DNA of 64,000 nt, from positions 186,001 to 250,000 of the forward strand of contig NZ_SIUB01000001.1 of NCBI RefSeq assembly GCF_004310425.1, given 5' to 3'. Below, piece by piece: positions 2,999 through 31,362 of this stretch (its first letter is position 1; every line of letters begins with the position of its first letter). The notes below the pieces were generated by a model. The model was given only the letters and a program-made list of their open reading frames with translations, had not been told where the DNA came from and ran no database searches. This stretch comes from Hansschlegelia quercus. GTDB taxonomy: Bacteria; Pseudomonadota; Alphaproteobacteria; Rhizobiales; Methylopilaceae. The position numbers and the translations under genes were made by a program.

Positions 2999-3043
2999 AC
3001 GCCCGCTTCGCCAGGATCGACATGTACAGAGCGCGTTGAGACG

Positions 3044-4147: not shown

Positions 4148-4154
4148 GACGGCG

Positions 4155-5670: not shown

Positions 5671-5787
5671 TGAACTTGCAAAAATAAAGAAAAGGCCCTG
5701 CCTTTTCTGTCTCATGACGTCCGCATGCTTGCGGTCTATGGACACTTACGCCTCCCGATAGGCGGCGTTGCTTCAGAGAGGCCTGAG

Positions 5788-6228: not shown

Positions 6229-6362
6229 CCGGCCCGACGCCGGCCTCCTGACCTCAAGCCCCGTCAGGATCTTCCATCCCCAAACGCCATCTCCGCTGAC
6301 GCCTCGGCTTCCGCGAACGAGAGCGGCTTGCCAGACGCGCGACTTTCATTCTGGAGACGACC

Positions 6363-12756: not shown

Positions 12757-12958
12757 TCGTCCCTGCACGATCAGGTGAAGCCGGCGAGCCGCGGGCTCTC
12801 TACGTCAATCGACTTATACGATCGATCGCTTCACACGTGGTCAGGTCGCTGACGCGGGTGGCGCTCAACGTGGGCGCACATGGCGCCGCGCCTCCACGCC
12901 GGCGAGCGTGCAACACGCCCTTTTTCCCGGCAATTCTCGTGCTTCGAAGGAGTTGAGC

Positions 12959-14231: not shown

Positions 14232-15461
14232 TCAGAGATCGGCCGCGAGCGGCATATCGATCGAGCCGTCCAGGAACTTCGTCGGACCCGCGGCGCTTGG
14301 GTTGATGTCGAACTCGAAGATCTTGGTCGGCAGCCACAAGGTCGCGCAAGCGTTGGGGATATCGACGACGCCCGAGATGTGCCCCTGAACGGGCGCGGTG
14401 CCGAGGATCGAGTAGGCCTGCGCGCCGGAATAACCGAACTTCTTGAGATACTCGATCGCGTTCAGGCAGGCCTGGCGGTAGGCGACGTGGACGTCGAGGT
14501 AATGCTGCTTGCCGGCCTCGTCGACCGAGATGCCCTCGAAGATGAGGTAGTCGTCATATTTTGGCGTGATGACGGACGGCTTGAAGATCGGGTTCTTGAT
14601 CCCGTATTTCGCGATGCCGTCTTTGATGACGTCGACCTTGAGATGCAGCCAGCCGGCCATCTCGATCGCGCCGCAGAAGGTGATCTCGCCGTCGCCCTGG
14701 CTGAAATGCAGGTCGCCCATCGAGAGCCCGCCGCCCGGCACGTAGACCGGGAAGTAGACCTTGGCGCCGCGCGACAGATCCTTGATGTCGCAATTGCCGC
14801 CATGCTCGCGCGGCGGCACGGTGCGTACGGCTTCCGCAGCCGCCTTGTCCTTCGCCTCGCCCTTGAGCCGGCCCATATGCGCCGTCGGCGCGAACGGCAC
14901 GGTGCCGACAGGCGGCACGCGGTCCTTGTGCGCCTCGACGAACGGGATCTCTCGGTCGTTCCAGGTCTTGAGCAGGTTCGGATCGGGAAGGCAGCCGATC
15001 AGGCCGGGATGGATCAAACCGGGGAACCGGACGCCAGGGATATGGCGCGACTTCGTGAACATGCCCTCGAAGTCCCAGATCGACTTCTGGGCCGACGGGA
15101 AGTGTTCGGTGAGGAAGCCGCCCCCATTCTGCTTGGAGAAGAAGCCGTTGAAGCCCCACTGGCTGTCGGGCTTTGCGCCGATGTCGAGAATGTCGACGAC
15201 CAAGAGATCGCCGGGCTCCGCGCCCTCGACGCCGATCGGGCCCGACAGGAAGTGGACGATGGTGAGGTCGATGTCGCGGACGTCGGACGCGTCGTCGTTG
15301 TTCTTGATGAACCCGCCGGTCCAGTCATAGGTCTCGATGATGAAGTCGTCGCCTGGCTTGGTCCAGGCCACCATCGGAATGTCCGGGTGCCAACGATTGT
15401 GCACCATGTCGTTGTCGTATGCGGACTGCGACAGGTCGACCTTGATCAGCGTTTCAGTCAT
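14232..15461 (-). CDS. fmdA: Formamidase (FmdA)
   Basis: Formamide amidohydrolase of the acetamidase/formamidase family, 409 aa, almost the length of the Methylophilus enzyme. It converts formamide (and weakly other short amides) to formate and ammonia in the cytoplasm. Visible family blocks are NRWHPDIP near the N-terminus, VEGAEPGDLLVVDI, GFNGFFSKQNGGGFLTEHFP, REHGGNCDIKDLS, GGLSMGDLHFSQGDGEI and ISGVVDIPNACATLWLP. It is the 3' neighbour of a complete Urt transporter and precedes fmdB, so import and hydrolysis are probably co-expressed. N-methylformamide or formamide released from other amides could feed it. Confidence 0.95.
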   Translation of the reverse strand: MTETLIKVDLSQSAYDNDMVHNRWHPDIPMVAWTKPGDDFIIETYDWTGGFIKNNDDASDVRDIDLTIVHFLSGPIGVEGAEPGDLLVVDILDIGAKPDSQWGFNGFFSKQNGGGFLTEHFPSAQKSIWDFEGMFTKSRHIPGVRFPGLIHPGLIGCLPDPNLLKTWNDREIPFVEAHKDRVPPVGTVPFAPTAHMGRLKGEAKDKAAAEAVRTVPPREHGGNCDIKDLSRGAKVYFPVYVPGGGLSMGDLHFSQGDGEITFCGAIEMAGWLHLKVDVIKDGIAKYGIKNPIFKPSVITPKYDDYLIFEGISVDEAGKQHYLDVHVAYRQACLNAIEYLKKFGYSGAQAYSILGTAPVQGHISGVVDIPNACATLWLPTKIFEFDINPSAAGPTKFLDGSIDMPLAADL

Positions 15462-15515: not shown

Positions 15516-16205
15516 TCAGACGGACAGGTATCGCGAGACCTTGGCCTCATCGACGGCCGAGCGCGGCTCGTCCTGGACGATCTCGCCGTTCTCGACGACC
15601 AGCACGCGGTCCGCGACGTCGAGCGCGAAGCTGAGCACCTGCTCGGAGACCACGATCGAGAGGCCCCGCTCGTCGCGGATGCGGCGCAGCGTTCGGGCCA
15701 TCTCGCGGATGATCGAAGGCTGGATGCCCTCGGTCGGCTCGTCGAGAAGCAGCACCTTGGGCTTGGTCGCGAGCGCGCGGGCGATCGCGAGCTGCTGCTG
15801 CTGGCCGCCGGACAGGTTGCCGGCGCGACGGCTCTTCATCTCCAGCAGCACGGGAAAGAGTTCGTAGATGTCGGACGGGACGTTGCGCTCGCCGGTGGCG
15901 ACCAGTCCGGTCTCGATGTTCTCCTTCACCGTCATCGTGGAGAACACCATCCGCCCCTGCGGCACGTAGGCGACCCCCTTCCTGACGCGCTGGTGGCTCT
16001 TCAGCGCGCCGATGTCCTCCCCGCCGAGACGGATGGCGCCGGCGGTCGTGGGCAGGACGCCCATCATGGTCTTCATCAGCGTGGTCTTGCCCATGCCGTT
16101 GCGACCCATGATCGCGACGATCTCGTTGGGCGCGACCTTGAAGTTCATCCCGTGAAGGACTTCGCTCTGGCCGTAGGAGACGTGCAGGTTCTCGACGTCG
16201 AGCAT
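15516..16205 (-). CDS. urtE: Urea/amide ABC transporter ATP-binding protein UrtE
   Basis: ATPase of 229 aa starting MLDVENLHVSYGQ. Walker A is GRNGMGKTT, the signature LSGGQQQQLAIARAL and Walker B VLLLDEPTEGIQP, the usual UrtE block. The start at 16205 gives the family-typical N-terminus. It is the fifth transporter gene; fmdA begins 54 bp further on. Confidence 0.92.
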   Translation of the reverse strand: MLDVENLHVSYGQSEVLHGMNFKVAPNEIVAIMGRNGMGKTTLMKTMMGVLPTTAGAIRLGGEDIGALKSHQRVRKGVAYVPQGRMVFSTMTVKENIETGLVATGERNVPSDIYELFPVLLEMKSRRAGNLSGGQQQQLAIARALATKPKVLLLDEPTEGIQPSIIREMARTLRRIRDERGLSIVVSEQVLSFALDVADRVLVVENGEIVQDEPRSAVDEAKVSRYLSV

Positions 16206-16219: not shown

Positions 16220-16978
16220 TCAGTGACCGAGATAGACTTCGACGACCTTGGGGTCGTTTTTGACCTTCTCCATCGAGCCCTCCGACAAGATTTTGCCCTG
16301 GTGGAGCACGGTGACCTTGTGGGCGATGTCCTCGACGAATTTCATGTCGTGCTCGATCACCAGCACCGAGCGGTTCTTGATGATCGTGTTGAGGAGCTCC
16401 GCGGTCTTGATCCGCTCGCTCACGCTCATGCCGGCGACCGGCTCGTCGAGCATCAGCAGTTCGGGGTCCTGGATCAGCAGCATGCCGATCTCGAGCCACT
16501 GCTTTTGGCCGTGGCTGAGGAAGGCGGCGTTGTCGTGCAGGCGGTCCTTGAGGAAGATGGCCTCGGCGACCTCGGCAACCCGCTCGCGCACCGCCGCGTC
16601 GCGCTTGAACGTCAGCGCGCCGAGGACCGAGCGGCCTCTCGGGTAGGAAATCTCGAGATTCTCGAAGACGGTAAGGTCGTCGTAGATCGAAGGCGTCTGG
16701 AACTTCCGCCCAACGCCGGCGAGCACGATCTGGCTCTCGCTCATCTTCGTCAGCTCCTTCTCGCGAAAGCGGATGGAGCCGGCGCTGGATTTCGTCTTGC
16801 CGCAGATGAGGTCGAGCACGGTCGTCTTGCCGGCGCCGTTGGGACCGATGATCACCCGGATCTCGTTCTCATCGACGTAGAATGACAGGTCATTCACGGC
16901 CTTAAAGCCGTCGAAGGAGACGGTGAGGCCCTCGACCGCGAGCAGATACTCTTTTGGCGGCGTACCAATCGTCGTCAT
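16220..16978 (-). CDS. urtD: Urea/amide ABC transporter ATP-binding protein UrtD
   Basis: ATPase of 252 aa. Walker A is GPNGAGKTT, the signature region LSHGQKQWLEIGM is UrtD-like, Walker B is LLMLDEPVAGMS and the H-loop VIEHDM. It pairs with UrtE, whose gene begins 14 bp downstream. Confidence 0.92.
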   Translation of the reverse strand: MTTIGTPPKEYLLAVEGLTVSFDGFKAVNDLSFYVDENEIRVIIGPNGAGKTTVLDLICGKTKSSAGSIRFREKELTKMSESQIVLAGVGRKFQTPSIYDDLTVFENLEISYPRGRSVLGALTFKRDAAVRERVAEVAEAIFLKDRLHDNAAFLSHGQKQWLEIGMLLIQDPELLMLDEPVAGMSVSERIKTAELLNTIIKNRSVLVIEHDMKFVEDIAHKVTVLHQGKILSEGSMEKVKNDPKVVEVYLGH

Positions 16979-16988: not shown

Positions 16989-18143
16989 TCACTCGGCCGG
17001 GGACGCGGCTGCGGCCTGCTTGGCGACGTTGGCTGCGGGGTCGGTCGGATCCTTGCTGTTCAGCTTGAGCGCGCGGTCGATGTGGGGCTGGACGTAATCG
17101 CGCCAGATGCCCGCCAATCCGTTGGGGAAGACCAGCACCACGGCGATGAACAGCCCGCCGAGACCCAGCAGCCAAAGCTCCGGAAAGCTTTCCGACAGGC
17201 TCGTCTTGGCGAAGTTGACCGCAAGCGTCCCGTAGACGGCGCCGAGGATCGAGAGGCGACCCCCAACCGCGGTGAAGATCACCATCTCGATCGAGGGAAC
17301 GATGCCTACCAACGAAGGCGACATGAAGCCGACGTTCAAGGTGAACATCGCTCCGCCGATCGCGGCGAACACGCCGGCGAGGCAGAACACGAAGATCTGG
17401 AAGTTCGCGACCGAGTAGCCGGAGAACCGCACCCGGTCCTCCTTGTCGCGCATCGCGACCAGGATGCGGCCGAGCTTGGAGTCCCGCACATACATCGCGA
17501 AACCCACGATGCAGAGCAGCAGGATCGCGTTGACGAAATAGAGGATGAATTTGGCGCTGTCGGTCCGGATATCCCAGCCGTGCAGCGTCCGAAGATCCGT
17601 GATGCCATTCACGCCGCCGGTGTAGCCCTGCTGACCGATGATCAGGATGGTCGCGATGGCGGCGAGAGCCTGGGTGATGATCGCGAAATAGACGCCCGAG
17701 ACGCGGCGCTTGAACATCGCCGAGCCGATCACGAAGCCGAACAGCGCCGGGATCAGGATGATCAGCAGGATCGTCAGCGGCAGCGAATGGAACGGCTGCC
17801 AGAAGTACGGCAGCTCGGTGATCTGGTTCCAGTCCATGAAGTCGGGGATGCCGGGCGTCGACTGGATCTTGGTGTTCTCGACCGACGACGCCTCGAGCTT
17901 GAGGTACATCGCCATGCCGTAGCCGCCGAGGGCGAAGAAGACGCCCTGCCCCAGGGACAGGATCCCGCCGAGGCCCCAACAGAGCACCAGCCCGACGGCG
18001 ACAAAGGCGTAAGTCAGGTACTTCGCCACCAGATTGAGGCGGAACCCGTCGAGCAGAGCCGGGAAGACGACGATCAGGATGATTGCGAGCAAGCCGACCG
18101 CGATCAGGTCCTTGAGATCCATGAAGGATGGGGCGCGCTTCAT
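16989..18143 (-). CDS. urtC: Urea/amide ABC transporter permease UrtC
   Basis: LivM/UrtC-type membrane subunit of 384 aa with the marker LCWGLGGILSLGQGVFFALGGYGMAMYLKL broken over two helices near residues 50-80 and the loop QQGYTGGVNGITDL typical of UrtC. It has a hydrophilic C-terminal tail rich in Ala and Lys. The gene is packed between urtB (11 bp) and urtD (10 bp). Confidence 0.92.
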   Translation of the reverse strand: MKRAPSFMDLKDLIAVGLLAIILIVVFPALLDGFRLNLVAKYLTYAFVAVGLVLCWGLGGILSLGQGVFFALGGYGMAMYLKLEASSVENTKIQSTPGIPDFMDWNQITELPYFWQPFHSLPLTILLIILIPALFGFVIGSAMFKRRVSGVYFAIITQALAAIATILIIGQQGYTGGVNGITDLRTLHGWDIRTDSAKFILYFVNAILLLCIVGFAMYVRDSKLGRILVAMRDKEDRVRFSGYSVANFQIFVFCLAGVFAAIGGAMFTLNVGFMSPSLVGIVPSIEMVIFTAVGGRLSILGAVYGTLAVNFAKTSLSESFPELWLLGLGGLFIAVVLVFPNGLAGIWRDYVQPHIDRALKLNSKDPTDPAANVAKQAAAASPAE

Positions 18144-18154: not shown

Positions 18155-19081
18155 TCAGCGCCGCACTTTGAGAGTGAACAGGCCCTGGGGCCGCAGCATC
18201 AGGATCGCCACGACCGTCAGCAGCGTGATCACCTTCGCCATCGAGCCCGACAGGAAGAACTCGAGCGTCGACTGGGTCTGAGAGATCGAGAAGGCGGACG
18301 CGATCGTGCCGAACAGGCTGGCGGCGCCGCCGAAGACGACGATGAGGAAGGTGTCGACGATGTAGAGCTGGCCGGACGTCGGCCCCGTAGAGCCGATCAT
18401 CGTGAAGGCCGAGCCCGCGACGCCGGCGATGCCGCAGCCGAGGCCGAACGTCATGCGGTCGACCCTCTCGGTGTCGATGCCGACAGCGCCCGCCATCACC
18501 CGGTTCTGCACCACCGCGCGGACCTGACGGCCCCAGCGCGCCTTATACATGAGCAACCCGACCGCGATGGTGATCAGCGCAGTCAGGCACATCACGAAGA
18601 CGCCGTTGATCGGCACTTCGATCGTGTCGGTCACAGGGAGCGACCCGAGCAGCCAGTCCGGCAACACAACGCCGACTTCGCGAGGGCCGAACACCGAGCG
18701 GTAGGTCTGCTGCAGGATAAGGCTCAGCCCCCAGGTGGCGAGCAGGGTGTCGAGCGGCCGCTTGTAGAGGCGCTTGATCAGCGCCCATTCCACCAGCATC
18801 CCGAGCGATCCGGACGCCAGGAACGCCAACGCCATCGCCACGAAGAAGTAGCCGGGGAACAGGGAAGGCAGATAGGCGGAGAAAAACTCGGAGCAGAAAT
18901 AGGTGACGTAGGCGCCGAGGATCATGAACTCCCCGTGGGCCATGTTGATGACGCCCATCTGCCCGAAAATGATCGCGAGTCCCAGCGCCATCAGAACGTA
19001 GACGGAGAACAGGATCAGGCCTGCGAAGCCCTGCATCGCGAAAATGGAGCCGAGGTCTCCAAGCGAATAGTCGCCGAACAT
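18155..19081 (-). CDS. urtB: Urea/amide ABC transporter permease UrtB (short form)
   Basis: LivH/UrtB-type membrane subunit, 308 aa, with GLAIIFGQMGVINMAHGEFMILGAY across residues 30-55 and ARWGRQVRAVVQNRVMAGAVGI in the cytoplasmic loop. It lacks the long N-terminal periplasmic domain present in the third UrtB of this window. It lies downstream of a hairpin that separates it from urtA. Confidence 0.92.
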   Translation of the reverse strand: MFGDYSLGDLGSIFAMQGFAGLILFSVYVLMALGLAIIFGQMGVINMAHGEFMILGAYVTYFCSEFFSAYLPSLFPGYFFVAMALAFLASGSLGMLVEWALIKRLYKRPLDTLLATWGLSLILQQTYRSVFGPREVGVVLPDWLLGSLPVTDTIEVPINGVFVMCLTALITIAVGLLMYKARWGRQVRAVVQNRVMAGAVGIDTERVDRMTFGLGCGIAGVAGSAFTMIGSTGPTSGQLYIVDTFLIVVFGGAASLFGTIASAFSISQTQSTLEFFLSGSMAKVITLLTVVAILMLRPQGLFTLKVRR

Positions 19082-19172: not shown

Positions 19173-20432
19173 TCACTGGTAGCCCTTTGGGAAGGGGTTC
19201 GGCTCGATGAGGTCCGGGCTCTCGTAGACCACCTTGAACTGACCGTCCTTCTGGGCGAGCCCGACGCGGGTCCTGGACCAGAGATGATGGTTCTCGTGGA
19301 TCTTGACGTAGCCTTCCGGCGCCTTGGTGAACTCGATGCCGGGCGAGGCTGCGGCAATCTTGTCGATGTCGAAGGAGCCGGCCTTCTCGACAGTCATTTT
19401 CCAGAGCCAAGGCCCGAGATAGGCGGCTTGGGTGACGTCGCCGATCACGGTCTTCTCGCCCCACATCTTCTTGAAGGCGGCGACGAATTCCTTGTTGTTC
19501 GGATTGTCGAGCGACTGGAAGTACTTCATGCAGGCGTAAGCGCCCGCGATGTTGTCGCCGCCGATGCCGTCGATCTCATCCTCGGTGACCGAGATAGTCA
19601 TCAGGGTCTGCTTCTCGAGATTGATGCCGGCCGCCTTCAGCTGCTTGTAGAACGCGACGTTCGAGCCGCCGACCACGTCCGTGAAGATCACGTCCGGCTT
19701 GGTCAGCTTCAGCTTGTTGATCACCGAGTTGAACTGGGTATGGCCGAGCGGGAAGTACTCTTCGCCGACGACCTTCGTCCCCTTCATGAAGTTTTCGATG
19801 TGCTTGCGCGCGATCTTGTTGGACGTGCGCGGCCAGATGTAATCCGAGCCGATGAAGAAGAAGGTCTTTGCCCCCTTCTCTTTCACGACCCAGTTGAGGC
19901 CGGCGAGGATCTGCTGGGTTGCTTCCTGGCCGGTGTAGATCACGTTTTTGGACTGCTCCAGACCTTCGTAGAAGGTCGGATAGTACAGCATGCCGTTGTA
20001 CTGCTCGATCACCGGCAGCACGGCCTTGCGCGACGCCGAGGTCCAGCAGCCCATGATCGCCGCCACCTTGTCCTGGACCAGCAGCTTCTTCGCCTTCTCG
20101 GCGAAGGTCGGCCAGTCGGACGCGCCGTCCTCCTGGACGAACTTGATCTTGCGGCCGAGCACGCCGCCCATTTCGTTGATCTGCGAGATCGCGAGCTTCT
20201 CGGCCTGGATTGACCCCGTCTCCGAGATCGCCATCGTGCCGGTGACGGAATGCAGGATGCCGACCGTCACTTCGGTATCCGTGACCGCAAGCCCGGTGGT
20301 GTTGACCGCCGAGGTCGCGGGCGTGTCGGCAAAGGCCACCTTCGGAAACAGGCCTGCCAGCGGCGCGGCCGCTATGCCCATCAGTAGCTGGCGGCGCAGC
20401 CGCGATTGGAGCTGGTCGTCCGGTCCGGCCAT
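19173..20432 (-). CDS. urtA: Urea/amide ABC transporter substrate-binding protein UrtA
   Basis: Periplasmic binding protein of 419 aa, close to canonical UrtA: VTVGILHSVTGTMAISETG, EDGASDWPTFAEKAKKLL, MGCWTSASRKAVLP and MLYYPTFYEGLEQSKN. It carries a signal peptide with an RR pair (SRLRRQLLMGIAAAPLAGLFP...FADTP). The start at 20432 follows GGAGAG and removes nine residues from the longest frame. It is first gene of the second transporter operon, which ends in fmdA-fmdB. Urea or formamide is the likely ligand. Confidence 0.92.
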   Translation of the reverse strand: MAGPDDQLQSRLRRQLLMGIAAAPLAGLFPKVAFADTPATSAVNTTGLAVTDTEVTVGILHSVTGTMAISETGSIQAEKLAISQINEMGGVLGRKIKFVQEDGASDWPTFAEKAKKLLVQDKVAAIMGCWTSASRKAVLPVIEQYNGMLYYPTFYEGLEQSKNVIYTGQEATQQILAGLNWVVKEKGAKTFFFIGSDYIWPRTSNKIARKHIENFMKGTKVVGEEYFPLGHTQFNSVINKLKLTKPDVIFTDVVGGSNVAFYKQLKAAGINLEKQTLMTISVTEDEIDGIGGDNIAGAYACMKYFQSLDNPNNKEFVAAFKKMWGEKTVIGDVTQAAYLGPWLWKMTVEKAGSFDIDKIAAASPGIEFTKAPEGYVKIHENHHLWSRTRVGLAQKDGQFKVVYESPDLIEPNPFPKGYQ

Positions 20433-20503: not shown

Positions 20504-20525
20504 ATATACGTCGGTTGACGTATAT
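20504..20525. promoter_or_regulatory. Perfect 9-bp inverted repeat in the divergent promoter region
   Basis: ATATACGTC (20504-20512) and GACGTATAT (20517-20525) are perfect inverted copies separated by GGTT. The site lies 72 bp upstream of urtA (- strand) and about 190 bp upstream of the sensor chimera (+ strand). TTGACG sits inside it at 20515-20520. This is a textbook dimeric operator geometry; the LuxR-type regulator encoded at 24084 is one candidate. Confidence 0.6.
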
Positions 20526-20713: not shown

Positions 20714-23700
20714 ATGACCGACCGCCTCCGCATCATTCCCGTGCGCCGTCGCTATAATCAGTGGGTCGCTGACGAGACGCTTGAGGATTACGCGCTTCGC
20801 TTCACCGCCAAGAGCGCCAGGCGGTGGTCCGCGGTTCGGGTGGGCAACACAGCGCTCGGGGCAGTCTCGTTCCTGGCGCTGGAAGCGATCGGCGGTGCGA
20901 TCACCCTGAGCTACGGCTTCGAGAACGCGGTCGCCGCGATTGCCGTCGTATCGGCGCTGATCTTCCTTACCGGCCTGCCGATCGCCTATTACGCGGCGCG
21001 CGACGGCGTCGACATCGACCTGCTGACCCGCGGCGCCGGCTTCGGCTACATCGGATCGACGATCACATCGCTGATCTATGCCTCTTTCACCTTCATCTTC
21101 TTCGCCATCGAGGCGGTCATCATGGCGCTCGCGCTGCAGCTCTGCTTCGGGCTGCCGCTCGCGATCGGCTATGTGGTATCGGCGATCGCGGTGATCCCGA
21201 TCGTGACCCACGGCATCGCGTGGATTAGCCGGTTCCAAGTCTGGACCCAGCCGCTCTGGATCGCCCTTCATCTCGCGCCGCTGACCTTCATCGCGCTTCA
21301 GGACGACGCGAGCTTTGCGGAATGGACCGGCTATTCCGGCGCAACGGTTCACGGCGGAGACCTCAACCTGCTGGGCGCGGGGGCCGCCGGCGCGGTGGTG
21401 TTTGCGCTCGTCGCGCAGATCGGAGAGCAGGTCGACATCCTGCGCTTCATGCCGGAACGGAAGGTCTCCGGACGGCTCGGCTGGTGGGCCGCGCTGATCG
21501 CCTCCGGGCCGGGCTGGATCGTGCCCGGCGCGGTGAAGATGGCGATCGGCTCCTTCCTCGCTGTGCTCGCGATGTCGCACGGCGTCCCGGCGTCTCATGC
21601 CGGCGAGCCGACCCAGATGTACCTCGTCGCCTTCGGCTACGTGTCATCGTCGCCGCAGGTGGCGCTTGCTCTGACCGGGGCGTTCGTCGTGGTCTCGCAG
21701 CTGAAGATCAACGTCACCAACGCCTACGCCGGCTCGATCGCCTGGTCGAACTTCTTCTCGCGGCTGACCCACGCCCATCCCGGGCGGATCGTGTGGCTGT
21801 TCTTCAACGTCGCGATCGCGGTGCTCCTGATGGAGGCCGGCATCTACAAGACGCTGGAACAGACGCTCGGGCTCTATTCGGTGGTCGCCGTCGCCTGGGT
21901 CGGAGCGCTCGTCGCGGACCTCACCATCAACAAGCCGCTCGGCCTCAGCCCGCGCCGCATCGAGTTCAAGCGAGCCCATCTCTACGACGTCAATCCGGTG
22001 GGCGTCGGCGCCATGGTGCTAGCGACCGTGGCCGCGATCACCTCATATGCCGGCGTCTTCGGGATCTACGCGCAGGCGCTGGCGCCCTTCATCGCGCTCG
22101 TGGTGGCGTTTCTCGCGGCGCCCGTGATCGCGCTTGCGACGGGCGGGCGCTTCTATCTCGCGCGCAAGCCTCGGGCCGAATGGCGACTTAGGCCTTCGCT
22201 CGCCTGCGCGGTTTGCGAGAACGCGTTCGAGCCCGAGGACATGGCGCATTGTCCGGTCTATTCCGGGCCGATCTGTTCGCTGTGCTGTTCGATCGACGCG
22301 CGCTGCCGGGACGGCTGCAAGCCGCACGCTCGCTATCAGGCGCAGGTGGTGGGTCTGCTCGCGGCCATCCTGCCAGACTGGTCCATCAGCCGCCTGAACA
22401 CGCGCACCGGCCACTTCTTCGGCGTGTTCGTGACCCTGTGCGGCATCCTCGGCCTCGTTCTGTCGCTCGTCCATTTCCTCGCCGTCCAGGCGGCGCCGAA
22501 AGAGGCGGCCGCGGTCGCGGGCGCGCTTTGGGCGGTGTTCCTGATCCTTGTGATCATAGCCGGCGTCGCGGCATGGCTGTTCGTGCTCGCCCAGGAGAGC
22601 CGGGAGATCGCGCAGGACGAAAGCTCGCGCCAGACCTCGCTGCTGATGCGCGAGATCGGGGCGCACAAGAAGACCGACGCGGCCCTCCAGCGCGCCAAAG
22701 AGGTGGCGGAGGCCGCAAACCTCGCGAAGAGCCGCTACGTCGTCGGCATCAATCACGAACTCCGCACGCCGCTCAACGCCGTGCTCGGCTATGCGCAGTT
22801 GCTCGACGCAGACGCCGGGTTGTCTCCCAAGACCCAAAAGGGCGTTCGGGTCATCCGCCGCAGCGCCGAGCATCTGTCCGGGCTGATCGACGGCCTGCTC
22901 GATATCGCCAAGGTCGAGGCCGGACGGCTGAAGCTGTCGCGCGATGAGGTCTGGACGGGGGCTTTCCTCGATCAGCTCGCAGACATGTTCCGCCTGCAGG
23001 CGACCGCGAAGGGCATCGACTTTGCGTTCAGTGGCGCGGGGTCGCTGCCGCCCGTGGTGCGCGCCGACGAGAAGCGGCTCAGGCAGGTGCTGATCAACCT
23101 GCTGTCCAATGCGGTGAAATTCACCGATTCCGGCCGCGTCTCGCTCCAGGTCACTTACCGCAGTCAGGTTGCCGAGTTCGAGATCGCCGACACCGGCGTC
23201 GGCATCCGTCCCGAAGACGCCGAGCGCGTGTTCGAGCCGTTCGAACGCGGCGCGATGAGCCGCGCTCAGCTCCAGCCCGGCATGGGGCTCGGCCTCACCA
23301 TCACCAAGCTGCTGGTCGAGATCATGGGCGGCGAGATTCTGCTCACGAGCACGCCCGGCCAGGGCTCGACATTCCGCGTCAGGCTGATGCTCGCCCATGT
23401 CGCGGACGCGCGCCCCCCGGCGGCCGCCAGGGCGCGCGTCCTTGGCTATACCGGCCGGCGTCGGGTCGTGCTCGTGGCCGACGACGACGATGACCAGCGC
23501 AACCTGATGCGCGAGGCCCTGGAGCCGATCGGCTTCATGGTCGTGACAGCGACCGACGGCGTCGCTGCGATGACGATCGCCGAGGAGTGCAGGCCGGACT
23601 TGGTGCTGCTCGACATCTCGATGCCCGGAATGTCCGGCTGGGACGTGGCGCGCAGGCTGCGCGAGACCGGTCACGACGCCCCGATCGTGATGATGTCCGC

Positions 23701-24091
23701 GAGCATCGGCGACACCGCCTCGCAGCCGGCCCGGGCGCCGGATCATAACGGAGCGATCTCCAAGCCGGTCGATCTCCAGGCGCTGATGACTCGCGTCGAG
23801 GCCCTTCTCGGCCTGAGCTACGTGACGGAGAGCGAGAGCGGGGGTCCCGCGCACGCCAATTCGCCGGAAGAGCACGCCCGGCCGGCGGCGCGCCATGTCG
23901 AGGAACTCGCTCGGCTGGGGGAAATCGGCTACGTCAGCGGCATCGAGTCCAAGCTCGCCGAGCTGGAAGCCGCCGATCTCGGGACCGGCGCATTCGTCAC
24001 GGCGGCGCGCGAGCGCATCCGCGCGTTCGATCTCCGCGGCTACATGGCGCTGCTCGAGCGCCGGAATGTGCCCGAGACCGCCGATGACTGA
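20714..24091 (+). CDS. NCS1-type transporter / hybrid sensor histidine kinase chimera
   Basis: Membrane protein of 1125 aa. Residues 1-490 are a 12-helix nucleobase:cation symporter-1 (cytosine/allantoin permease-like) domain. Residues 498-536 form a cysteine-rich insert with eight or more Cys in CxxC-like pairs, probably a zinc knuckle. Two more membrane segments (about 560-650) lead to a HisKA domain with phospho-acceptor His681 (NHELRTPL), an HATPase domain (NLLSNAVKFTD, DTGVGI, GMGLGLTI) and a receiver with Asp967 (LLDISMPG). An alpha-helical tail of about 120 residues ends the protein. The start at 20714 gives the ETLEDYALRFTAKSARRWS N-terminus; a TTG at 20618 is the alternative. It overlaps the response-regulator gene by 8 bp and diverges from the urtA-fmdA operon. 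It likely senses an amide, urea or nucleobase through the transporter fold. Confidence 0.88.
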   Translation: MTDRLRIIPVRRRYNQWVADETLEDYALRFTAKSARRWSAVRVGNTALGAVSFLALEAIGGAITLSYGFENAVAAIAVVSALIFLTGLPIAYYAARDGVDIDLLTRGAGFGYIGSTITSLIYASFTFIFFAIEAVIMALALQLCFGLPLAIGYVVSAIAVIPIVTHGIAWISRFQVWTQPLWIALHLAPLTFIALQDDASFAEWTGYSGATVHGGDLNLLGAGAAGAVVFALVAQIGEQVDILRFMPERKVSGRLGWWAALIASGPGWIVPGAVKMAIGSFLAVLAMSHGVPASHAGEPTQMYLVAFGYVSSSPQVALALTGAFVVVSQLKINVTNAYAGSIAWSNFFSRLTHAHPGRIVWLFFNVAIAVLLMEAGIYKTLEQTLGLYSVVAVAWVGALVADLTINKPLGLSPRRIEFKRAHLYDVNPVGVGAMVLATVAAITSYAGVFGIYAQALAPFIALVVAFLAAPVIALATGGRFYLARKPRAEWRLRPSLACAVCENAFEPEDMAHCPVYSGPICSLCCSIDARCRDGCKPHARYQAQVVGLLAAILPDWSISRLNTRTGHFFGVFVTLCGILGLVLSLVHFLAVQAAPKEAAAVAGALWAVFLILVIIAGVAAWLFVLAQESREIAQDESSRQTSLLMREIGAHKKTDAALQRAKEVAEAANLAKSRYVVGINHELRTPLNAVLGYAQLLDADAGLSPKTQKGVRVIRRSAEHLSGLIDGLLDIAKVEAGRLKLSRDEVWTGAFLDQLADMFRLQATAKGIDFAFSGAGSLPPVVRADEKRLRQVLINLLSNAVKFTDSGRVSLQVTYRSQVAEFEIADTGVGIRPEDAERVFEPFERGAMSRAQLQPGMGLGLTITKLLVEIMGGEILLTSTPGQGSTFRVRLMLAHVADARPPAAARARVLGYTGRRRVVLVADDDDDQRNLMREALEPIGFMVVTATDGVAAMTIAEECRPDLVLLDISMPGMSGWDVARRLRETGHDAPIVMMSASIGDTASQPARAPDHNGAISKPVDLQALMTRVEALLGLSYVTESESGGPAHANSPEEHARPAARHVEELARLGEIGYVSGIESKLAELEAADLGTGAFVTAARERIRAFDLRGYMALLERRNVPETADD

Positions 24092-25001
24092 GCCTGCGCC
24101 ACGCACAGTCGTGCTCGTGGTCGACGACAGCCCCGAGACGCTCGCGATGCTGACGGAGGCGCTGGAGCGGACCGGGGCGGTCGTCCTAGTCGCCACGGAC
24201 GGCGAGCGCGCGCTCGCCGCGGTTGAACGCGTGGCGCCGGACCTCATCCTGCTCGACGCGGTTATGCCCGGCCTCGATGGCTTCGAGACCTGTCGCCGAC
24301 TGAAGAAGCTCTCGGCGCTGACGCACGTGCCGGTGATCTTCATGACGGGCCTCAAGGAGACCGACCGCATCGTCGAGGGACTTGAGGCCGGCGGCGTCGA
24401 CTACGTCACTAAGCCCATTGTGATCGACGAGTTGCTGGCGCGCATCCGGGTCCATATCGACAACGCCCGCCTGTCGCGGAGCGCCCGCGCGGCGCTCGAC
24501 ACCACGGGGCGCTTCCTGTTCGCGGCCGACAGGAACGGTCGTCTGCTCTGGTCGACGCCGCAGGCGACCCGGCTGCTCGCGACCGCATCACCAAACTTCA
24601 GCGCGGAAGATCTCGCATTGCCGGAGATCGTCGCCAAATGGCTCGTCGCCCGCAGCGAGGGCCGCAGCGACCAGCCTTCGGTGAGCCTTCAGGCCGGCGC
24701 CGAGGGCGCCTCGCTGGTGGTCGCCTTCGTTGGGCAGTCCGACCGGGACGAGTTGCTGCTCCGCGTCACGCAGGAAGGCGGCTCGGACTACGCCGCCCTG
24801 TTCAAGGATCGCCTGGGCGTCACCACGCGCGAGGCCGACGTCCTGCTATGGATCGCCCGCGGGAAGTCGAACCGCGACATCGGCGAGATCCTGGGCATGA
24901 GCCCGCGGACCGTGAACAAACATCTGGAGCAGATCTACGTGAAGCTCGGCGTCGAAAACCGTGCGGCGGCGGCCGCCGCCGCCGTCCGCGTCCTGCAGTA
25001 G
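24084..25001 (+). CDS. LuxR-type DNA-binding response regulator
   Basis: Protein of 305 aa. An N-terminal receiver (VDDSPE acidic pocket, phospho-acceptor Asp58 in LLDAVMPG, Lys in TKP) is followed by a middle region of about 110 residues that looks like a degenerate PAS-like fold (GRFLFAADRNGRLLWSTP). A C-terminal LuxR helix-turn-helix closes it (LTTREADVLLWIARGKSNRDIGEILGMSPRTV split across helices). The start overlaps the sensor gene's stop. It is the cognate output of the NCS1-kinase chimera and a candidate activator of the divergent urt-fmdA operon. Confidence 0.9.
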   Translation: MTEPAPRTVVLVVDDSPETLAMLTEALERTGAVVLVATDGERALAAVERVAPDLILLDAVMPGLDGFETCRRLKKLSALTHVPVIFMTGLKETDRIVEGLEAGGVDYVTKPIVIDELLARIRVHIDNARLSRSARAALDTTGRFLFAADRNGRLLWSTPQATRLLATASPNFSAEDLALPEIVAKWLVARSEGRSDQPSVSLQAGAEGASLVVAFVGQSDRDELLLRVTQEGGSDYAALFKDRLGVTTREADVLLWIARGKSNRDIGEILGMSPRTVNKHLEQIYVKLGVENRAAAAAAAVRVLQ

Positions 25002-25011: not shown

Positions 25012-25950
25012 TCAGATCAACGCCTTCGGCAACATCATGTGGATGCCTTTGTTGCCGTCGACGAGCTGCGTCACCCGCAGGTTCCCGGCGAGCGAGCACA
25101 GCATGTAAGCCTCGTTGCGGGTGAGGTTGGAGCGCAAGCAGACGTGACGGACCATCTCGCGCACCGCCTGCTTGGCGGCGTCGTCGAGGTCTTCGTCGAG
25201 GCCGATCGACATCAGGTGCGTTTCGTTCTCCGCGAAGGGGAAGTCGATCGCGAGGTCCTTGCGGACGGTAAGGCGGAATGTGCCCTCGAGGCCGGTCTCG
25301 AGCGCGGTGATGCAGACCTCGCCGTCGCCCTGCACGCCATGGCCGTCGCCCGCGAAGAACAGCGCGCCTTCGTTGAAGACCGGCAGATAGAGCGTCGCCC
25401 CCGGCTTCAGCTCCTTATTGTCCATGTTGCCGCCGAAGGCGCGTGGGACGGGCGAGCCGCAGCGGCCCCATGCGGGAGGCGGCGCAACGCCCATAATGCC
25501 GAAGAACGGGTCGAGCGGCACCTCCACGCCCCAGGGAAGCCTGCAGACGCCGGCCGCCGTGTCGATCGCGGGGTGGATCGTTTCATAGTCGGTGAACTCG
25601 TCCGGCAGCGTGCCGAGCAGCGGCAGAATCGCGACGAAGCCCCAGTCCATCGTGGGCTTGGCTTCGAGGATGTCGATCTGAAGCGCGTCACCCGGCTCCG
25701 CGCCCTCCACGAAGATCGGCCCGGTGATGAAGTGCGGCCCCCCGCCCTGCTGCAGCGTGTCGAGCGCGGCCAGATAGTCCGCTGGCGCCTTCGAGGAGTC
25801 CGGCGGCAGGCACTCCTTGCCGCCAGCGGGGAACGAGGTGAGCGTCACGGTGTCGCCGGAGGCGATGCGCACGACCGGCTTGAGCGCGCTGTCGAGATAG
25901 CCCCAGACCATGTTCTCGGGCGCGGAGGAGATCGTGTGGTGACGGGCCAT
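25012..25950 (-). CDS. Acetamidase/formamidase family protein (second copy)
   Basis: Amidohydrolase of 312 aa from the shorter branch of the acetamidase/formamidase family. Markers are HFITGPIFVEGAEPGDALQIDILE, WGVEVPLDPFFGIMGVAPP, GGNMDNKELKPGATLYLPV, FFAGDGHGVQGDGE and ETHLMSIG. Compared with FmdA (409 aa) it lacks several insertions, so substrate range may differ (acetamide, formamide or another short amide). The gene follows urtE of the third transporter after 26 bp on the same strand and ends 10 bp from the convergent response-regulator gene. Confidence 0.9.
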   Translation of the reverse strand: MARHHTISSAPENMVWGYLDSALKPVVRIASGDTVTLTSFPAGGKECLPPDSSKAPADYLAALDTLQQGGGPHFITGPIFVEGAEPGDALQIDILEAKPTMDWGFVAILPLLGTLPDEFTDYETIHPAIDTAAGVCRLPWGVEVPLDPFFGIMGVAPPPAWGRCGSPVPRAFGGNMDNKELKPGATLYLPVFNEGALFFAGDGHGVQGDGEVCITALETGLEGTFRLTVRKDLAIDFPFAENETHLMSIGLDEDLDDAAKQAVREMVRHVCLRSNLTRNEAYMLCSLAGNLRVTQLVDGNKGIHMMLPKALI

Positions 25951-25976
25951 GGGAGCCTCGCTTTCCTGCGTTTGCT

Positions 25977-26669
25977 TTAGACGGACATGAAACGGGACAG
26001 GCGCTCGCGGCTCATCTCGCCGCGGGCGCCCCGATCGACGATCTGGCCGCGCGAGAGCACCACGAAGCCGTCCGCGACCGCGGTCGCGAAATCGAGATAT
26101 TGTTCGACCAGCAGGATCGAGATCCGGCCCTTGAGGCCGCTCAGCACGGTCTCGATCAACTGGACGATCGAGGGTTGGACCCCTTCCGTCGGCTCGTCGA
26201 GGATGAGCAGTTTCGGCTTCGTGATGAGGGCTCGCGCGATCGCGAGCTGCTGTTGCTGTCCTCCGGAGAGAGCGCCCCCGCGCCGGCCCGCCATCTCGCC
26301 AAGGATTGGGAACAGCCGGACCGCCTCGGAGATCCCTTCCCCCGCTGGGTCGCCATGCGCGCGGGCGGCCACGAGAAGGTTCTCCCTGACCGTCAGCTCC
26401 GCGAAGATCTCCCGGCCTTGGGGCACATAGGCGATCCCCGCGCGGGATCGGCGATGGTTCTGGCTCAGCGTGACATCCGCGCCATCGAATGTGATCGACC
26501 CGCGCGTGACAGGCAGCAGCCCGACGAGGCACCTCAGCAAAGTCGACTTGCCGGCGCCGTTGCGGCCGAGCACCGCGAGGCACTGGCCGGGCTCGACCTC
26601 GAACGAGACCATCCTCAGAACCTGAGCGCCGCCGTAATGCTGGTCGAGGTCGCGGACCATGAGTTTCAT
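25977..26669 (-). CDS. urtE: Urea/amide ABC transporter ATP-binding protein UrtE (third set)
   Basis: ATPase of 230 aa: MKLMVRDLDQHYGGAQVLR start, Walker A GRNGAGKST, signature LSGGQQQQLAIARAL and Walker B LLILDEPTEGVQPS. The start at 26669 is set by the 4-bp gap to urtD. An in-frame upstream extension inside urtD is not needed. Confidence 0.92.
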   Translation of the reverse strand: MKLMVRDLDQHYGGAQVLRMVSFEVEPGQCLAVLGRNGAGKSTLLRCLVGLLPVTRGSITFDGADVTLSQNHRRSRAGIAYVPQGREIFAELTVRENLLVAARAHGDPAGEGISEAVRLFPILGEMAGRRGGALSGGQQQQLAIARALITKPKLLILDEPTEGVQPSIVQLIETVLSGLKGRISILLVEQYLDFATAVADGFVVLSRGQIVDRGARGEMSRERLSRFMSV

Positions 26670-26673
26670 CGCG

Positions 26674-27380
<707 letters not shown>

Positions 27381-27384
<4 letters not shown>

Positions 27385-28484
27385 GAGGGTGCATCCTTCG
27401 GCTGAAGCGCGCCCGGCCGCGTGAGCATCGCGGGCCGCCAGCGGCCGATGTCGAGCAGCCCGTTCGGGAAGATCAGCGCGACTAGAATGACGAGAGCCGA
27501 CAGCACGAACGGCCAGAGTTCGGGGAGCGTCGCCGAGAGCGAGAACTTGATGGCGTTGACGACGACCGCCCCGATCACGGCGCCGGCGAGCCGCCCGCGT
27601 CCGCCGATCGCGCACCAGACGGCGATCTCGAGCGAGAGCTCAGGCGACAGCACGCGCGGATTGATGATGCCGACCTGCGGCACGTAGAGCAGTCCAGCGA
27701 TCGCTGCGATCACCGCCGACAGGCACCAGACCGCGAGCTTGAGCCGCAGCGTCTCGTAGCCGAGAGAGCGCAGCCGGGTCTCGTCGTCGCGCGTGGCGAC
27801 CAGCAGGCGGCCGAACCGCCCGATCATCAGCAGGCGGCAGCCAACCAACGTGAGGCCAAGCGCTCCAAGCGACGCGAGCGCCAGCCCCTCCGCGACCCCC
27901 GGCGTCTGGAACGGGACGCCGAAGATCGTCTGAAAGCCGGTCATGCCGTTGTTGCCGCCGAAGCCGGTGTCGTTTCGGAACATCAGCAGCATCGCGACAT
28001 AGACGAGCGCCTGGGTGATGATCGCGAAGTAGACGCCGCCGACCCGCGAGCGGAACGACACCCAGCCGAAAGCGAAGGACGCCGCGAACGAGACCGCGAC
28101 CGCAGCGAGCAGCGCTATCGAAAAGCTCCCGAGCGGCCCCCACCAATTGGGAAGCGCCGTCCAGCCCATGAACTGAACGATATCAGGCGTGATCCCGGTG
28201 GTCGCAACCGACTGCTCAAGCAGGTGCATGCCGGCGACGTAGCCGCCGATCGCGAAGAACAGTCCGTGCCCAAGACTGAGGATGCCGGCATATCCCCAGA
28301 TCAGGTCCAGCGCGACCGCGAGTAGAGCGAAGCAGGCGAGTTGCCCGACGATGTTGACGCGATAGCCGGACAGGCCGGGCCACAGGGCCACGGCCGCAAA
28401 AGCGAGCAACGTCGCCGCCGCGACGCCTGAAAAGACGCGGTCGTCCAGCGCGCGGGCGAGATACGCCTTTTTCGGAGCGATCAC
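27381..28484 (-). CDS. urtC: Urea/amide ABC transporter permease UrtC (third set)
   Basis: LivM/UrtC-type permease of 367 aa. The start chosen is GTG at 28484 because it overlaps the TGA of urtB (GTGA), the coupling used elsewhere in this operon; an ATG at 28526 would overlap urtB by 46 bp. Family features are LIWGYAGILSLGHGLFFAIGGY and a central loop GFGGNNGMTGFQTI, which differs from the YTGGVNGIT loop of the other two UrtC copies. Confidence 0.9.
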
Positions 28485-30088
28485 TTGCGGCGTCCCTTCA
28501 CGGCGTAGAGGCCCTCGGGACGCCACTGCAGGAACGCTATGATCATCAGCAGCACGATCACCTTGGCGGCGACCGCGCCGTAGAGCGGTTCGATGAGCAC
28601 GTTGATCTGGCCGACGCCGAGCGACGCGATCGCCGTGCCGGCTAGCGTCCCCACACCGCCCAGCACCACGACCATGAAACTGTCGACGATGAAGTTCGAG
28701 CCCATCTGCGGATTCACATTGTAGATCGGGCAGAGCGCAAGCCCCGCAAGGCCGGCGAGCCCCGAGCCCAGCCCGAACGCCATCATATCGACGCGGCGGG
28801 TAGCTATGCCCACGCAGCCCGCCATCGCACGGTTCTGGGTGACGGCGCGAATATTGAGGCCAAGCGGCGTGCGCTTCAGCACAAACCAGGTCAGCGCGAG
28901 CGTGACGGCCGCAAACACAATCGCGAACAGGCGGTTCCAGGTGACGATGAAGTCGCCCATCAGGAGCCGGCCGCCCGAGATGTACCAGGGGGTGACGAAC
29001 TGGAGGTTCTGAGTGCCGACCGCGACCCGCATCAGGTTCACGAGCAGCAGGCTGACCGCCCAGGTCGCGAGCAACGTCATCAGCGGGCGGGTATAGAGAC
29101 GGCGCACGATCGTCGCCTCGACGGCGACGCCGATTCCCGCCGTCACGACGAACACGACAGGGATCGCGGCGATCAGGTACCAGTCGATCAACGACGGCGC
29201 GACGGCGCGCAGCGTCTCCTGCACGGCGTAGGCGACATAGGCGCCAATCATGATGAACTCGCCCTGGGCGAGATTGATCACGCCCATCAGCCCGAAGATG
29301 ATCGCGAGGCCGGCCGAGGCCATGAACAGGATCGAGGCGAATGACAGGCCGTTGTAGAACACGTTGAGGGCGTTCGAGAGCGCGAGCCAGCGCCCGATTG
29401 AGGCGACGCCTTCGTCGACCGCGCCGCGGAAGGCGGGGTCGGTCCGATAGGCCGGATCGCTCTTCAGCCCGTCGACCCGGGTGAGCGCCCGACGGTCCGA
29501 CGTTGCGGCGATGTGTTCGATCGCCGCGATGCGCTTGGGCATGTCCGGCGAGTTGAGCAGCGCCGCCTGGCCGACGCCGAGGATGCGGGCCTTCAGCCCC
29601 GCGTCGGCTTCGGTCTCCGCCGCCTTTTCGAAGAACTCCGGCGGCAGCGATCCGGCGCGGCGCTCGAGCGCCGCAAGAGCTGCGCCGCGCTCATCCGCCG
29701 TCGCGCCGCTCCGAAGCGTGGCCGCGGCGCGGACAGTCTCGAACAGCGGCCGGTTCTTCAGGCTGAGCAGCGGAGACGTTCCGCCCCCGCCGTCAACGGG
29801 GCTGAGGGTCACGGCGTTCACCGCGCCCTCGGAACGCACGATCATCGCGCCGCCGGGACCACATTTCAGACCTCGGTCGATCGCAGCGCCGGCGAGCGCC
29901 ACGGTCCATTTCGCGTCGTCGGCCGAGGCGTCGACCAGTCCTGCAGCCATGGCGTTGGCCGCGTCCGTCATGCCCGCCGCGCCGCCGCAGGCCTGCGCCG
30001 CAATGGCCGCGCGATCGAACGCCGCCGCAGCCGGTCCGCACGCAACAACCGCGCCTAACAAGCCCGCAAGCAGGCTACGCCGCCACAC
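28481..30088 (-). CDS. urtB: Urea/amide ABC transporter permease UrtB with periplasmic N-terminal domain
   Basis: Long UrtB of 535 aa. A signal-like helix (SLLAGLLGAVVACGPAAAA) precedes about 220 residues of predicted periplasmic alpha-helical domain with ERRAGSLPPEFFEKAAETEAD-like repeats split by loops, and then the LivH-type permease (GLAIIFGLMGVINLAQGE). This is the standard architecture of urea-transport UrtB, unlike the two short copies here. GTG 30088 is chosen: it follows CGGAGG and yields the signal segment. A 6-bp hairpin (30094-30108) holds that ribosome site in its loop and stem, 4 bp after the urtA stop, so translation may be coupled. Confidence 0.88.
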   Translation of the reverse strand: MWRRSLLAGLLGAVVACGPAAAAFDRAAIAAQACGGAAGMTDAANAMAAGLVDASADDAKWTVALAGAAIDRGLKCGPGGAMIVRSEGAVNAVTLSPVDGGGGTSPLLSLKNRPLFETVRAAATLRSGATADERGAALAALERRAGSLPPEFFEKAAETEADAGLKARILGVGQAALLNSPDMPKRIAAIEHIAATSDRRALTRVDGLKSDPAYRTDPAFRGAVDEGVASIGRWLALSNALNVFYNGLSFASILFMASAGLAIIFGLMGVINLAQGEFIMIGAYVAYAVQETLRAVAPSLIDWYLIAAIPVVFVVTAGIGVAVEATIVRRLYTRPLMTLLATWAVSLLLVNLMRVAVGTQNLQFVTPWYISGGRLLMGDFIVTWNRLFAIVFAAVTLALTWFVLKRTPLGLNIRAVTQNRAMAGCVGIATRRVDMMAFGLGSGLAGLAGLALCPIYNVNPQMGSNFIVDSFMVVVLGGVGTLAGTAIASLGVGQINVLIEPLYGAVAAKVIVLLMIIAFLQWRPEGLYAVKGRRK

Positions 30089-30111
30089 CCCCGCCACCCT
30101 CCGGGTGGAGA

Positions 30112-31362
30112 TCAGCCGTACTGGCTCATCGGCACAGGCTTCGGCGTCCCCTCCGACTGCCAGAGCACGTCGAAGCCTTGGGAGGCGTTGACCGAGCCGA
30201 TGAACACGCCGCGCGAGACGTAATTGTTCTCGGCCGTCATGCCGATCTTGTAGCCGGACGGGCAATCGAAACTCAGGCCCGCAAACGCTTGTCGCACCTC
30301 CGGCACGTCGAAGGAACCAGCCTTCTTGGCGGCCATCGCCCAGAGATGAACAGCGTCGTAGGTCGAGACCATCGGGTCGATTGCGACGTCGGGACGGAAC
30401 GGCGCCTTCGTCTTGCCGACATAGTCCGCCCAGGATTTGAGGAACTTCTGGTTGGCCTCGCCCTTGGCCTGCTGGAGATAGGCCCAGCAGTTGAGGTGGC
30501 CGACGAGCTTCTGGGTGTCGAGGCCCTCGAGATCAGCCTCCACCATGTCGAGGCCGAGCACCGGCACGTCGGACGACGAAATGCCTTGGTTCGCGAACTC
30601 GCGCATGAAGTCCGGGATCGACGAACCCACGACCGTCAGCACGACCACGAGCTTGCCGCCCGGCGCGTCCGCAAAGGCGCGGATCTGGTTCACGATGGTC
30701 TGGAAGTTGGAGAAGGAGAACGGCACGTACTCCTCCTTCCAGGCGCTCTCTTCGATGCCCTTTGTCTTCCAGTAGCCCTTGAGCTGCTTGTTGATGGTGC
30801 GCGGCCAGACGTAGTCCGATCCAACCATGAAGAAGCGCTTCGCCTCCACGCCGTCGGGGCTCATCAGGTAATCGACCGCCGGCAGCACGGAGCTCGCGGG
30901 CGGGGAGTTCACGTAGACGACGTTCTTCGAGTTCTCATCGCCCTCGAAGTGAAGGGGATAGAACAGCAGCCCATTGTTCTGCTCCACCACCGGCAGCACG
31001 GATTTGCGGGACACCGAGGTCCAGCAGCCGAACAGCGCCGCGACCTTGGTCTCCGAGAGCATCTGGCGGCCGACCTGCGCATAGAGCGGCCAGTCCGAGG
31101 CCGGGTCCGACGTGACCACCTCGATCGTCGAGCCGTTGACGCCGCCCGCCGCGTTAATCTCCTCGGCCGCCATCTTGGCCACGAAATTCATGCGGCCTTC
31201 GAGGTTCGCCATGGTGCCGGAGGACGAGAACAGGCAGCCGAGCTTCACCGTTCCCGCCGCGCGCGATGACCGGATCAGCGGCGGCGCGGCGAGCGGCAGG
31301 ATCGCGCTCGCCGCCGCGGCGCCCGTGGTCCTGAGGAAGGTTCTGCGGTCGAACTTGCTCAT
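30112..31362 (-). CDS. urtA: Urea/amide ABC transporter substrate-binding protein UrtA (third set)
   Basis: Periplasmic binding protein of 416 aa with a clear twin-arginine signal (FDRRTFLRTTGAAAAS...SRAAG). The core shows the family blocks ASDWPLYAQVGRQML, FGCWTSVSRKSVLP, LLFYPLHFEGDENSKN and MVGSDYVWPRT. The first strand reads LGCLFSSSGTMA rather than the GILHSLSGTMA of canonical UrtA, so the ligand may be a short amide and not urea. It is the first gene of operon A-B-C-D-E-amidase. Confidence 0.9.
   Translation of the reverse strand: MSKFDRRTFLRTTGAAAASAILPLAAPPLIRSSRAAGTVKLGCLFSSSGTMANLEGRMNFVAKMAAEEINAAGGVNGSTIEVVTSDPASDWPLYAQVGRQMLSETKVAALFGCWTSVSRKSVLPVVEQNNGLLFYPLHFEGDENSKNVVYVNSPPASSVLPAVDYLMSPDGVEAKRFFMVGSDYVWPRTINKQLKGYWKTKGIEESAWKEEYVPFSFSNFQTIVNQIRAFADAPGGKLVVVLTVVGSSIPDFMREFANQGISSSDVPVLGLDMVEADLEGLDTQKLVGHLNCWAYLQQAKGEANQKFLKSWADYVGKTKAPFRPDVAIDPMVSTYDAVHLWAMAAKKAGSFDVPEVRQAFAGLSFDCPSGYKIGMTAENNYVSRGVFIGSVNASQGFDVLWQSEGTPKPVPMSQYG

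Follow-up and report, generated by a model that had tools for sequence, protein, structure and literature searches.

Architecture and conservation of the sensor kinase

We analysed a stretch of 64,000 nucleotides from the 3.58 Mb genome of Hansschlegelia quercus (positions 186,001 to 250,000 of contig NZ_SIUB01000001.1; hereafter the window), in which a forward-strand gene (20714..24091) encodes a hybrid sensor histidine kinase of 1125 aa with an NCS1-related input domain, as assigned from the translation of its open reading frame (ORF), Pfam matches and profile and fold comparisons. From its N terminus, the protein comprises the membrane domain, of about 12 helices (residues 22-478, 20777..22147), a cluster of eight cysteines (residues 498-535, 22205..22318), two extra long helices (residues 564-639, 22403..22630; predicted at 564-593 and 595-639), a HisKA domain (PF00512, residues 672-737, 22727..22924) with the phospho-acceptor His681 (codon 22754-22756), a HATPase_c domain (PF02518, 94 bits, residues 785-893, 23066..23392) and a receiver (PF00072, 84.7 bits, residues 919-1028, 23468..23797) with Asp967 (codon 23612-23614), all on the forward strand. 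The elements of a hybrid histidine kinase, that is, HisKA with its histidine, HATPase_c and a receiver with its aspartate, are all present. The next gene on this strand (24084..25001), whose start overlaps the end of the kinase gene by 8 bases, encodes a response regulator with a receiver (PF00072) and a LuxR/GerE helix-turn-helix (PF00196).

On the reverse strand, divergent from the kinase gene, lie urtA1 (19173..20432), for an amide/urea substrate-binding protein (PF13433; TIGR03407, 545 bits against a cut-off of 492.75), the ABC permease genes urtB1 (18155..19081; PF02653, 132.7 bits) and urtC1 (16989..18143; PF02653, 130.1 bits), and the ABC ATPase genes urtD1 (16220..16978; PF00005, 104.3 bits) and urtE1 (15516..16205; PF00005, 121.3 bits), the order of urtB1 to urtE1 being conserved in relatives. 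The last gene of the operon is the formamidase gene fmdA1 (14232..15461; PF03069; NF045496, 753.4 bits against a cut-off of 500). An earlier note on this DNA, written by a model from the letters alone, had described HisKA, HATPase and receiver domains behind a transporter-like domain, a Cys cluster and extra helices between the two parts, coupling to a LuxR regulator and a divergent amide/urea operon, and each of these features was recovered here.

A class-level scan found matches to the kinase in 26 of 385 genomes, the own genome included, and a phylum-level sample in 55 of 398, three of these 55 being a 94-aa fragment, a protein without the NCS1 part and a weak match (E 6.7e-6). Peptide-pattern matches in GTDB contigs contained 395 relatives, the best 80 of which were kept; this set covers Alpha-, Beta- and Gammaproteobacteria, and the closest named relatives of the input domain within it are those of Chenggangzhangella and Methylopila (86%). 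Because parts of the Cys cluster were among the peptide patterns, the selection was biased, and sets gathered without patterns were used to counter this. His681, Asp967 and the eight cysteines are identical in 83 of 83 aligned kinases, and the histidine and the cysteines are likewise identical in the pattern-free sets.

If 12 helices precede it, the Cys cluster is cytoplasmic. We propose that it forms a two-metal cross-brace, probably with zinc, a RING/FYVE-type arrangement for which the comparisons gave fold hints only. The helices at 564-639 are probably a membrane hairpin leading into the kinase, as judged from the helix prediction. A relative that has no NCS1 part (L220:7857-9713), with a convergent LuxR regulator beside it, has kept the hairpin and, in reduced form, the Cys tail, and a tblastn search upstream found no NCS1 remnant.

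A divergent NCS1-related domain and its pocket residues

Profile-profile comparison of the membrane domain (hhalign) gave probabilities of 97.6% (E 4.5e-12) against six NCS1 sequences and 98.6% with CodB and Mhp1, figures to be read with the small number of NCS1 sequences used (six to eight) and a family Neff of 2.2. CodB and Mhp1 are also the nearest solved folds. As parent families, SSF (0.5%, against 16 SSF proteins), BCCT (0.5%) and AA_permease_2 (10%) were rejected by the same comparison. There was no NCBIfam family for the domain among the matches listed, and a profile search against the sequences of solved structures returned three matches, at chance level.

One relative, L217, is a stand-alone protein of 497 aa, 30% identical, that passes the NCS1 model PF02133 (36.4 bits against a cut-off of 23.5), whereas the kinase input domain does not match it. 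For this reason the first ~480 residues are described as a divergent NCS1-related branch and not as a Pfam-defined member of NCS1. The 12-helix NCS1 symporter fold of the earlier note is recovered as an NCS1-related fold of about 12 helices, in a domain with no direct match to PF02133. L217 is the only stand-alone relative at E 1e-30 in the 398 genomes, all other matches lying in kinase-sized frames. Its gene stands beside those of a C-N hydrolase, an AmiC-like binding protein (Peripla_BP_5) and an AmiR/ANTAR protein (L217:6949-11984), and it is possibly an NCS1 amide transporter.

Pocket residues were placed by sequence alignment at 16-18% identity, not on coordinates, from the site residues given in excerpts of PMC9379551 (CodB) and PMC4195764 (Mhp1); the registers of transmembrane helices (TM) 3 and 8 are anchored by motifs and that of TM6 is less certain. 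In this alignment the TM8 hydroxyl ligands of the Na2 site that mark a Na+-coupled symporter, Thr278 and Thr279 of CodB, are replaced by Lys331 (codon 21704..21706, forward strand) and Ile332. The lysine is found in 83/83 kinases and in 24/24 full-length, 30/30 and 16/16 sequences of the pattern-free sets; the isoleucine, in 83/83, with one Val in the pattern-free sets. L217 has Arg at the lysine position, so a charge there is by itself no mark of a sensor or of a dead transporter. Arg244 and Tyr338 fall on the Arg216/Tyr285 pair of CodB (83/83). Phe129 falls on Trp108 of CodB, the aromatic residue that TM3 contributes to the pocket in CodB and Mhp1, and is Phe in 80 and Leu in 3 of the 83 kinases, with Leu in 8/25, 1/30 and 2/16 sequences of the pattern-free sets.

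The second aromatic plate (Phe204 in CodB, Trp220 in Mhp1) is occupied by Leu232 (83/83). Thr126, on Gln105 of CodB, is invariant in the 83 kinases, as is Glu133, on Gln121 of Mhp1 (83/83), while Glu238 and Gln239, directly past the TM6 break, are invariant in the kinases and were not found in L217. Most of the TM3, TM6 and TM8 pocket positions examined are as invariant as the cysteines. The loss of one aromatic plate with retention of polar groups would fit a smaller, non-aromatic ligand.

Most kinase genes counted lie beside amide or urea genes

Searches gave 129 kinase matches, the stand-alone L217 among them, and the neighbourhoods of 78 were counted (about 4 kb plus 3.5 kb flanks, identity above 40%). 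Since the best 80 of 395 relatives were kept, these neighbourhoods are chiefly those of the closer members of the family. With FmdA, AmiE and amide-type UrtA as amide markers and urease and urea-type UrtA as urea markers, 40/78 loci carry amide markers only, 32/78 urea markers only, 2/78 both and 4/78 neither. FmdA is found at 37/78 loci, urease at 29/78, amide-type UrtA at 40/78, urea-type UrtA at 17/78 and any UrtA at 57/78. Examination of gene neighbourhoods had been suggested as a check in the earlier note, and it finds amide or urea markers, or both, at all but 4 of the 78 loci. On the strength of these neighbourhoods formamide and/or urea are the best guess for the ligand; of the solutes that the note had put forward (urea, allantoin or a formamide-like compound), allantoin is left unsupported.

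Three genomes hold two kinase copies each (L227/L228, L229/L230 and L231/L232); in each pair one copy has amide-type ABC genes or a formamidase gene nearby, and the other has urease genes. On a quick tree, made without bootstrap and with long-branch warnings, 16 of its 76 inner branches being left open, the amide and urea labels require 5 changes and are clustered, with 0 of 500 shuffles as low for either label, a clustering that is partly due to the inclusion of related species. When only the starred branches of the tree are counted, 4 changes remain necessary for the amide label and 5 for the urea label.

The input module also remains with formamidase when the output changes. At two rewired loci (L218:3634-8156 and L219:3651-8347) the kinase retains the NCS1 domain, the eight cysteines and the two TM helices and still adjoins FmdA (68 and 71%), although its core is of a different kind and lacks the receiver, a REC-kinase is encoded separately and the regulator is of the OmpR type.

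A conserved palindrome between the divergent genes

The stretch between the kinase gene and urtA contains ATATACGTCGGTTGACGTATAT, and the palindrome TACGTCGGTTGACGTA lies there at 20507..20522. We propose that it is the operator of the LuxR-type regulator, which would bind it. Within the own genome, this site is the only one that matches the pattern TACGTC-N4-GACGTA perfectly; at the one-mismatch level the pattern's genome-wide matches are no more than chance (3 matches per strand for a reversed control pattern versus 2).

The palindrome is conserved upstream of relatives' kinase and fmdA genes. Of the 129 upstream regions, 126 (window included) were long enough for scoring, near-copies among them (the window recurs as L197, and a single upstream site is common to L043, L189 and L225); 21, 18 and 16 contain it with 0, 1 and 2 mismatches (55 in total), against 0, 0.1 and 1.6 regions (1.7 in total) expected from shuffles of two-base blocks. 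By group, sites with at most 2 mismatches occur in 32/41 amide, 2/2 both, 6/32 urea and 0/4 neither regions. The 78 loci, 1.56 Mb in all, contain 39 sites that deviate from the pattern at no more than one position, 14 of them being perfect, whereas eight control palindromes gave 0-9 sites each and none perfect. Upstream of the kinase lie 25 of the 39, and 12, stemming from about four lineages (the Alcanivorax, Zhongshania/Pseudomaricurvus, Halomonas and Stutzerimonas groups), are found at 81-215 bp from the FmdA start. The remaining two are just upstream of a porin-like gene (L071) and, with one mismatch, 102 bp from a cut-off urtA-like gene at a locus nevertheless scored as neither (L234). 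A search of the amide set without preset motif recovered the same element, its top words occurring in 18 and 15 of 36 de-replicated regions and those of shuffled controls in 2-4. As fmdA1 ends the divergent operon, one palindrome site could serve all its genes.

A proposed transceptor-like sensor of small amides

We propose that the kinase is a transceptor-like sensor of amides of the size of formamide or urea that drives urtABCDE-fmdA through the adjacent LuxR-type regulator, a reading to which we assign a probability of roughly two in three (0.68). It builds on computed properties, namely domain make-up, NCS1-like fold, invariant residues, neighbourhoods and the conserved palindrome; from these we infer the ligand, the conformational coupling, the metal, the phosphate route, DNA binding and the sign of regulation. 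Formamide or urea, both very small amides, would occupy the former transport site of the NCS1-derived domain, between the TM3/TM8 hash and the TM1/TM6 bundle, and hash and bundle would shift against each other upon binding, in the way described for Mhp1 and CodB. The cytoplasmic eight-Cys module, probably with zinc, and the two-helix membrane hairpin would relay this shift to the dimerisation helices and alter the phosphorylation of His681. Phosphate would then reach the LuxR-type regulator, a transfer that the fused receiver (Asp967) would mediate or modulate, and the regulator would bind TACGTC-N4-GACGTA between the divergent genes and turn on the operon, leading to amide uptake and hydrolysis to formate and ammonia.

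Several observations weigh against this proposal. PF02133 has no Pfam match at E 10 in the window protein and none in any of the 38 sequences of set A1 (the window protein and 37 of the 80 retained relatives), and Pfam detects no Hpt domain in kinase or regulator, so that phosphate transfer may be direct or relayed. The neighbourhood tally consists of raw counts with related species included, and four of its 78 loci lack amide and urea markers. Among these four, RND efflux genes adjoin L097 and L100, and metal-linked genes are found near L079 and again near L100, so that a metal or another signal is possible. The palindrome is rare at urea-linked loci (6/32), and the motif-free search of the urea set found no such element: the word ranked first there, present in 9 of the 27 de-replicated regions, is of a different kind. 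The other two Urt-like operons of the window have no convincing palindrome, and sites with at most 3 mismatches are fewer in the whole window than expected by chance (7 seen, 17 expected). Finally, ammonia is said to repress the fmd cluster of Methylophilus methylotrophus (excerpt of PMC10781810), and nitrogen status may therefore matter as well.

The membrane domain could instead still be a working transporter whose turnover, not binding, is read by the kinase, as proposed for CbrA. The core NCS1 Arg/Tyr pair is kept, the Arg of L217 shows that a charge at the Lys331 position does not mark a dead transporter, and a lysine pointing into Na2 has been described for proton-coupled SLC transporters and for CbrA (Lys196; excerpt of PMC13022988). 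On the other hand, 57/78 loci have their own UrtA, so that amide uptake need not go through the kinase; the invariant Glu238/Gln239 of the kinases are absent from stand-alone L217; and the transporter-kinase Ks-Amt5 is reported to have lost transport (excerpt of PMC5764959). Taken together, sensing by flux appears rather unlikely to us. It is improbable that the input is a metal, redox or nitrogen status perceived by the eight-Cys module, with the NCS1 domain as anchor or secondary input. The strict invariance of the cysteines speaks for it, as do two markerless loci, the first next to an HMA/E1-E2 ATPase and the other next to CopD. Urease, moreover, requires nickel, and the repression by ammonia mentioned above would suit a nitrogen signal. 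Yet most pocket positions examined are as invariant as the cysteines, and the input module stays beside formamidase when kinase and regulator type have changed.

A further explanation takes a nucleobase, hydantoin or allantoin as the ligand and lets the amide/urea genes act on its breakdown product; it is the one we find least credible, and we regard it as very improbable. It would suit the NCS1-like fold, the TM3 aromatic Phe129 (80/83, though Leu in 8/25 of one pattern-free set) and the Amidohydro_2 gene that adjoins the kinase in L218. However, the second aromatic plate has become Leu232 in 83/83 kinases, and the scanned neighbours, a small part of all, included no gene named as acting on nucleobases, hydantoin or allantoin.

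Comparison with known transporter-kinases

Fusions of transporters and kinases, which the earlier note had mentioned for sodium:solute symporters such as CbrA, are indeed described for SLC5/STAC and Amt types (excerpts of PMC13022988 and PMC5764959). In the open-licence literature no NCS1-histidine-kinase fusion was found among the matches listed. Among such fusions the window kinase is set apart by its NCS1-related input. Like the SLC5/STAC kinases CbrA, CrbS and RpuS, it joins a transporter domain to a histidine kinase, and its proposed targets are, like theirs, nutrient utilisation genes. CrbS too is a hybrid kinase (excerpt of PMC5715377), and Lys196 of CbrA lies in the Na2 site (excerpt of PMC13022988), as Lys331 does by alignment. 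The same excerpt describes transport and signalling as hard to separate in CbrA, which may transport. The window kinase differs in that its transporter is NCS1-related and not SLC5 (SSF profile 0.5%), in having the eight-Cys module and two-helix hairpin where CbrA has STAC and PAS, and in the LuxR type of its partner regulator. For STAC there was no Pfam match in the region and none among the best 25 of 161 NCBIfam matches, in libraries that may contain no STAC model.

As proposed here for the window kinase, a transporter fused to a histidine kinase has become the sensor of a small nitrogen compound in Ks-Amt5, but this protein has an Amt domain, a trimeric core and DHp and CA only, the excerpt of PMC5764959 mentioning neither a Cys module nor a receiver. 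With respect to CodB and Mhp1, the window kinase has Lys331/Ile332 for the Na2 ligands Thr278/Thr279, Leu232 for the TM6 aromatic, and fused signalling domains. In Methylophilus methylotrophus, formamide and urea are said to induce the fmdCABDEF cluster, for which the excerpt of PMC10781810 mentions only 'a putative positive regulator' and no NCS1 kinase. Porin-like genes between urtA and the kinase at two urea-linked loci (L061:8722-9660, L071:6269-7450) recall the amide/urea porin of that cluster.

More tentatively, and with somewhat less than even confidence, we suggest that these proteins form a separate class of receptor kinases beside the SLC5/STAC and Amt types, with an NCS1-type fold, a lysine in the old sodium site, a ligand range that went from flat rings to the smallest amides, a RING-like two-metal module for relay or licensing, and a specificity that moved about five times between formamide-type amides and urea (on one quick tree). 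If so, nature has already run the specificity-swap experiment, and amide/urea paralogue pairs occur naturally in single genomes. The family is common (55/398 phylum genomes) and strictly conserved, its ligand panel is cheap and its predicted operator short. It bears on how transporter folds turn into receptors, and would account for the regulation of formamide and urea uptake in many Proteobacteria.

Further probable amide genes in the window

At 5725-8762, a DMFA2_C protein (799 aa, PF20254, 286 bits) lies behind a 167-aa ORF without Pfam match; by sequence they are the probable large and small subunits of N,N-dimethylformamidase, and on their account the region looks like an N,N-dimethylformamide (DMF)/amide island. 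Upstream of this DMF gene is a third Urt-like ABC operon (608-5602), whose binding protein (331.5 bits) is under the UrtA cut-off of 492.75, so that its substrate may be another amide. Convergent to the regulator, a second amidase-family protein (PF03069, 106.5 bits) is encoded with its own Urt-like ABC operon (25012-31362), whose binding protein (381.2 bits) is also under the cut-off, whose permease (28481-30265) has a long N-terminal extension, and which has no convincing palindrome in front. There is no indication that the palindrome controls these two operons or the DMF gene, the other window sites having 1-3 mismatches and the total being below chance. One copy with a single mismatch (12801-12816) lies upstream of a MOSC-domain gene (12908-13801) and may be due to chance. 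A 366-aa protein without Pfam match (8833-9933) resembles, on the impression of its sequence, the alpha subunit of a ring-hydroxylating dioxygenase. At the edge of the amide cluster an HTH_Tnp_1 transposase ORF (31618-32007, 46.9 bits) hints at mobility.

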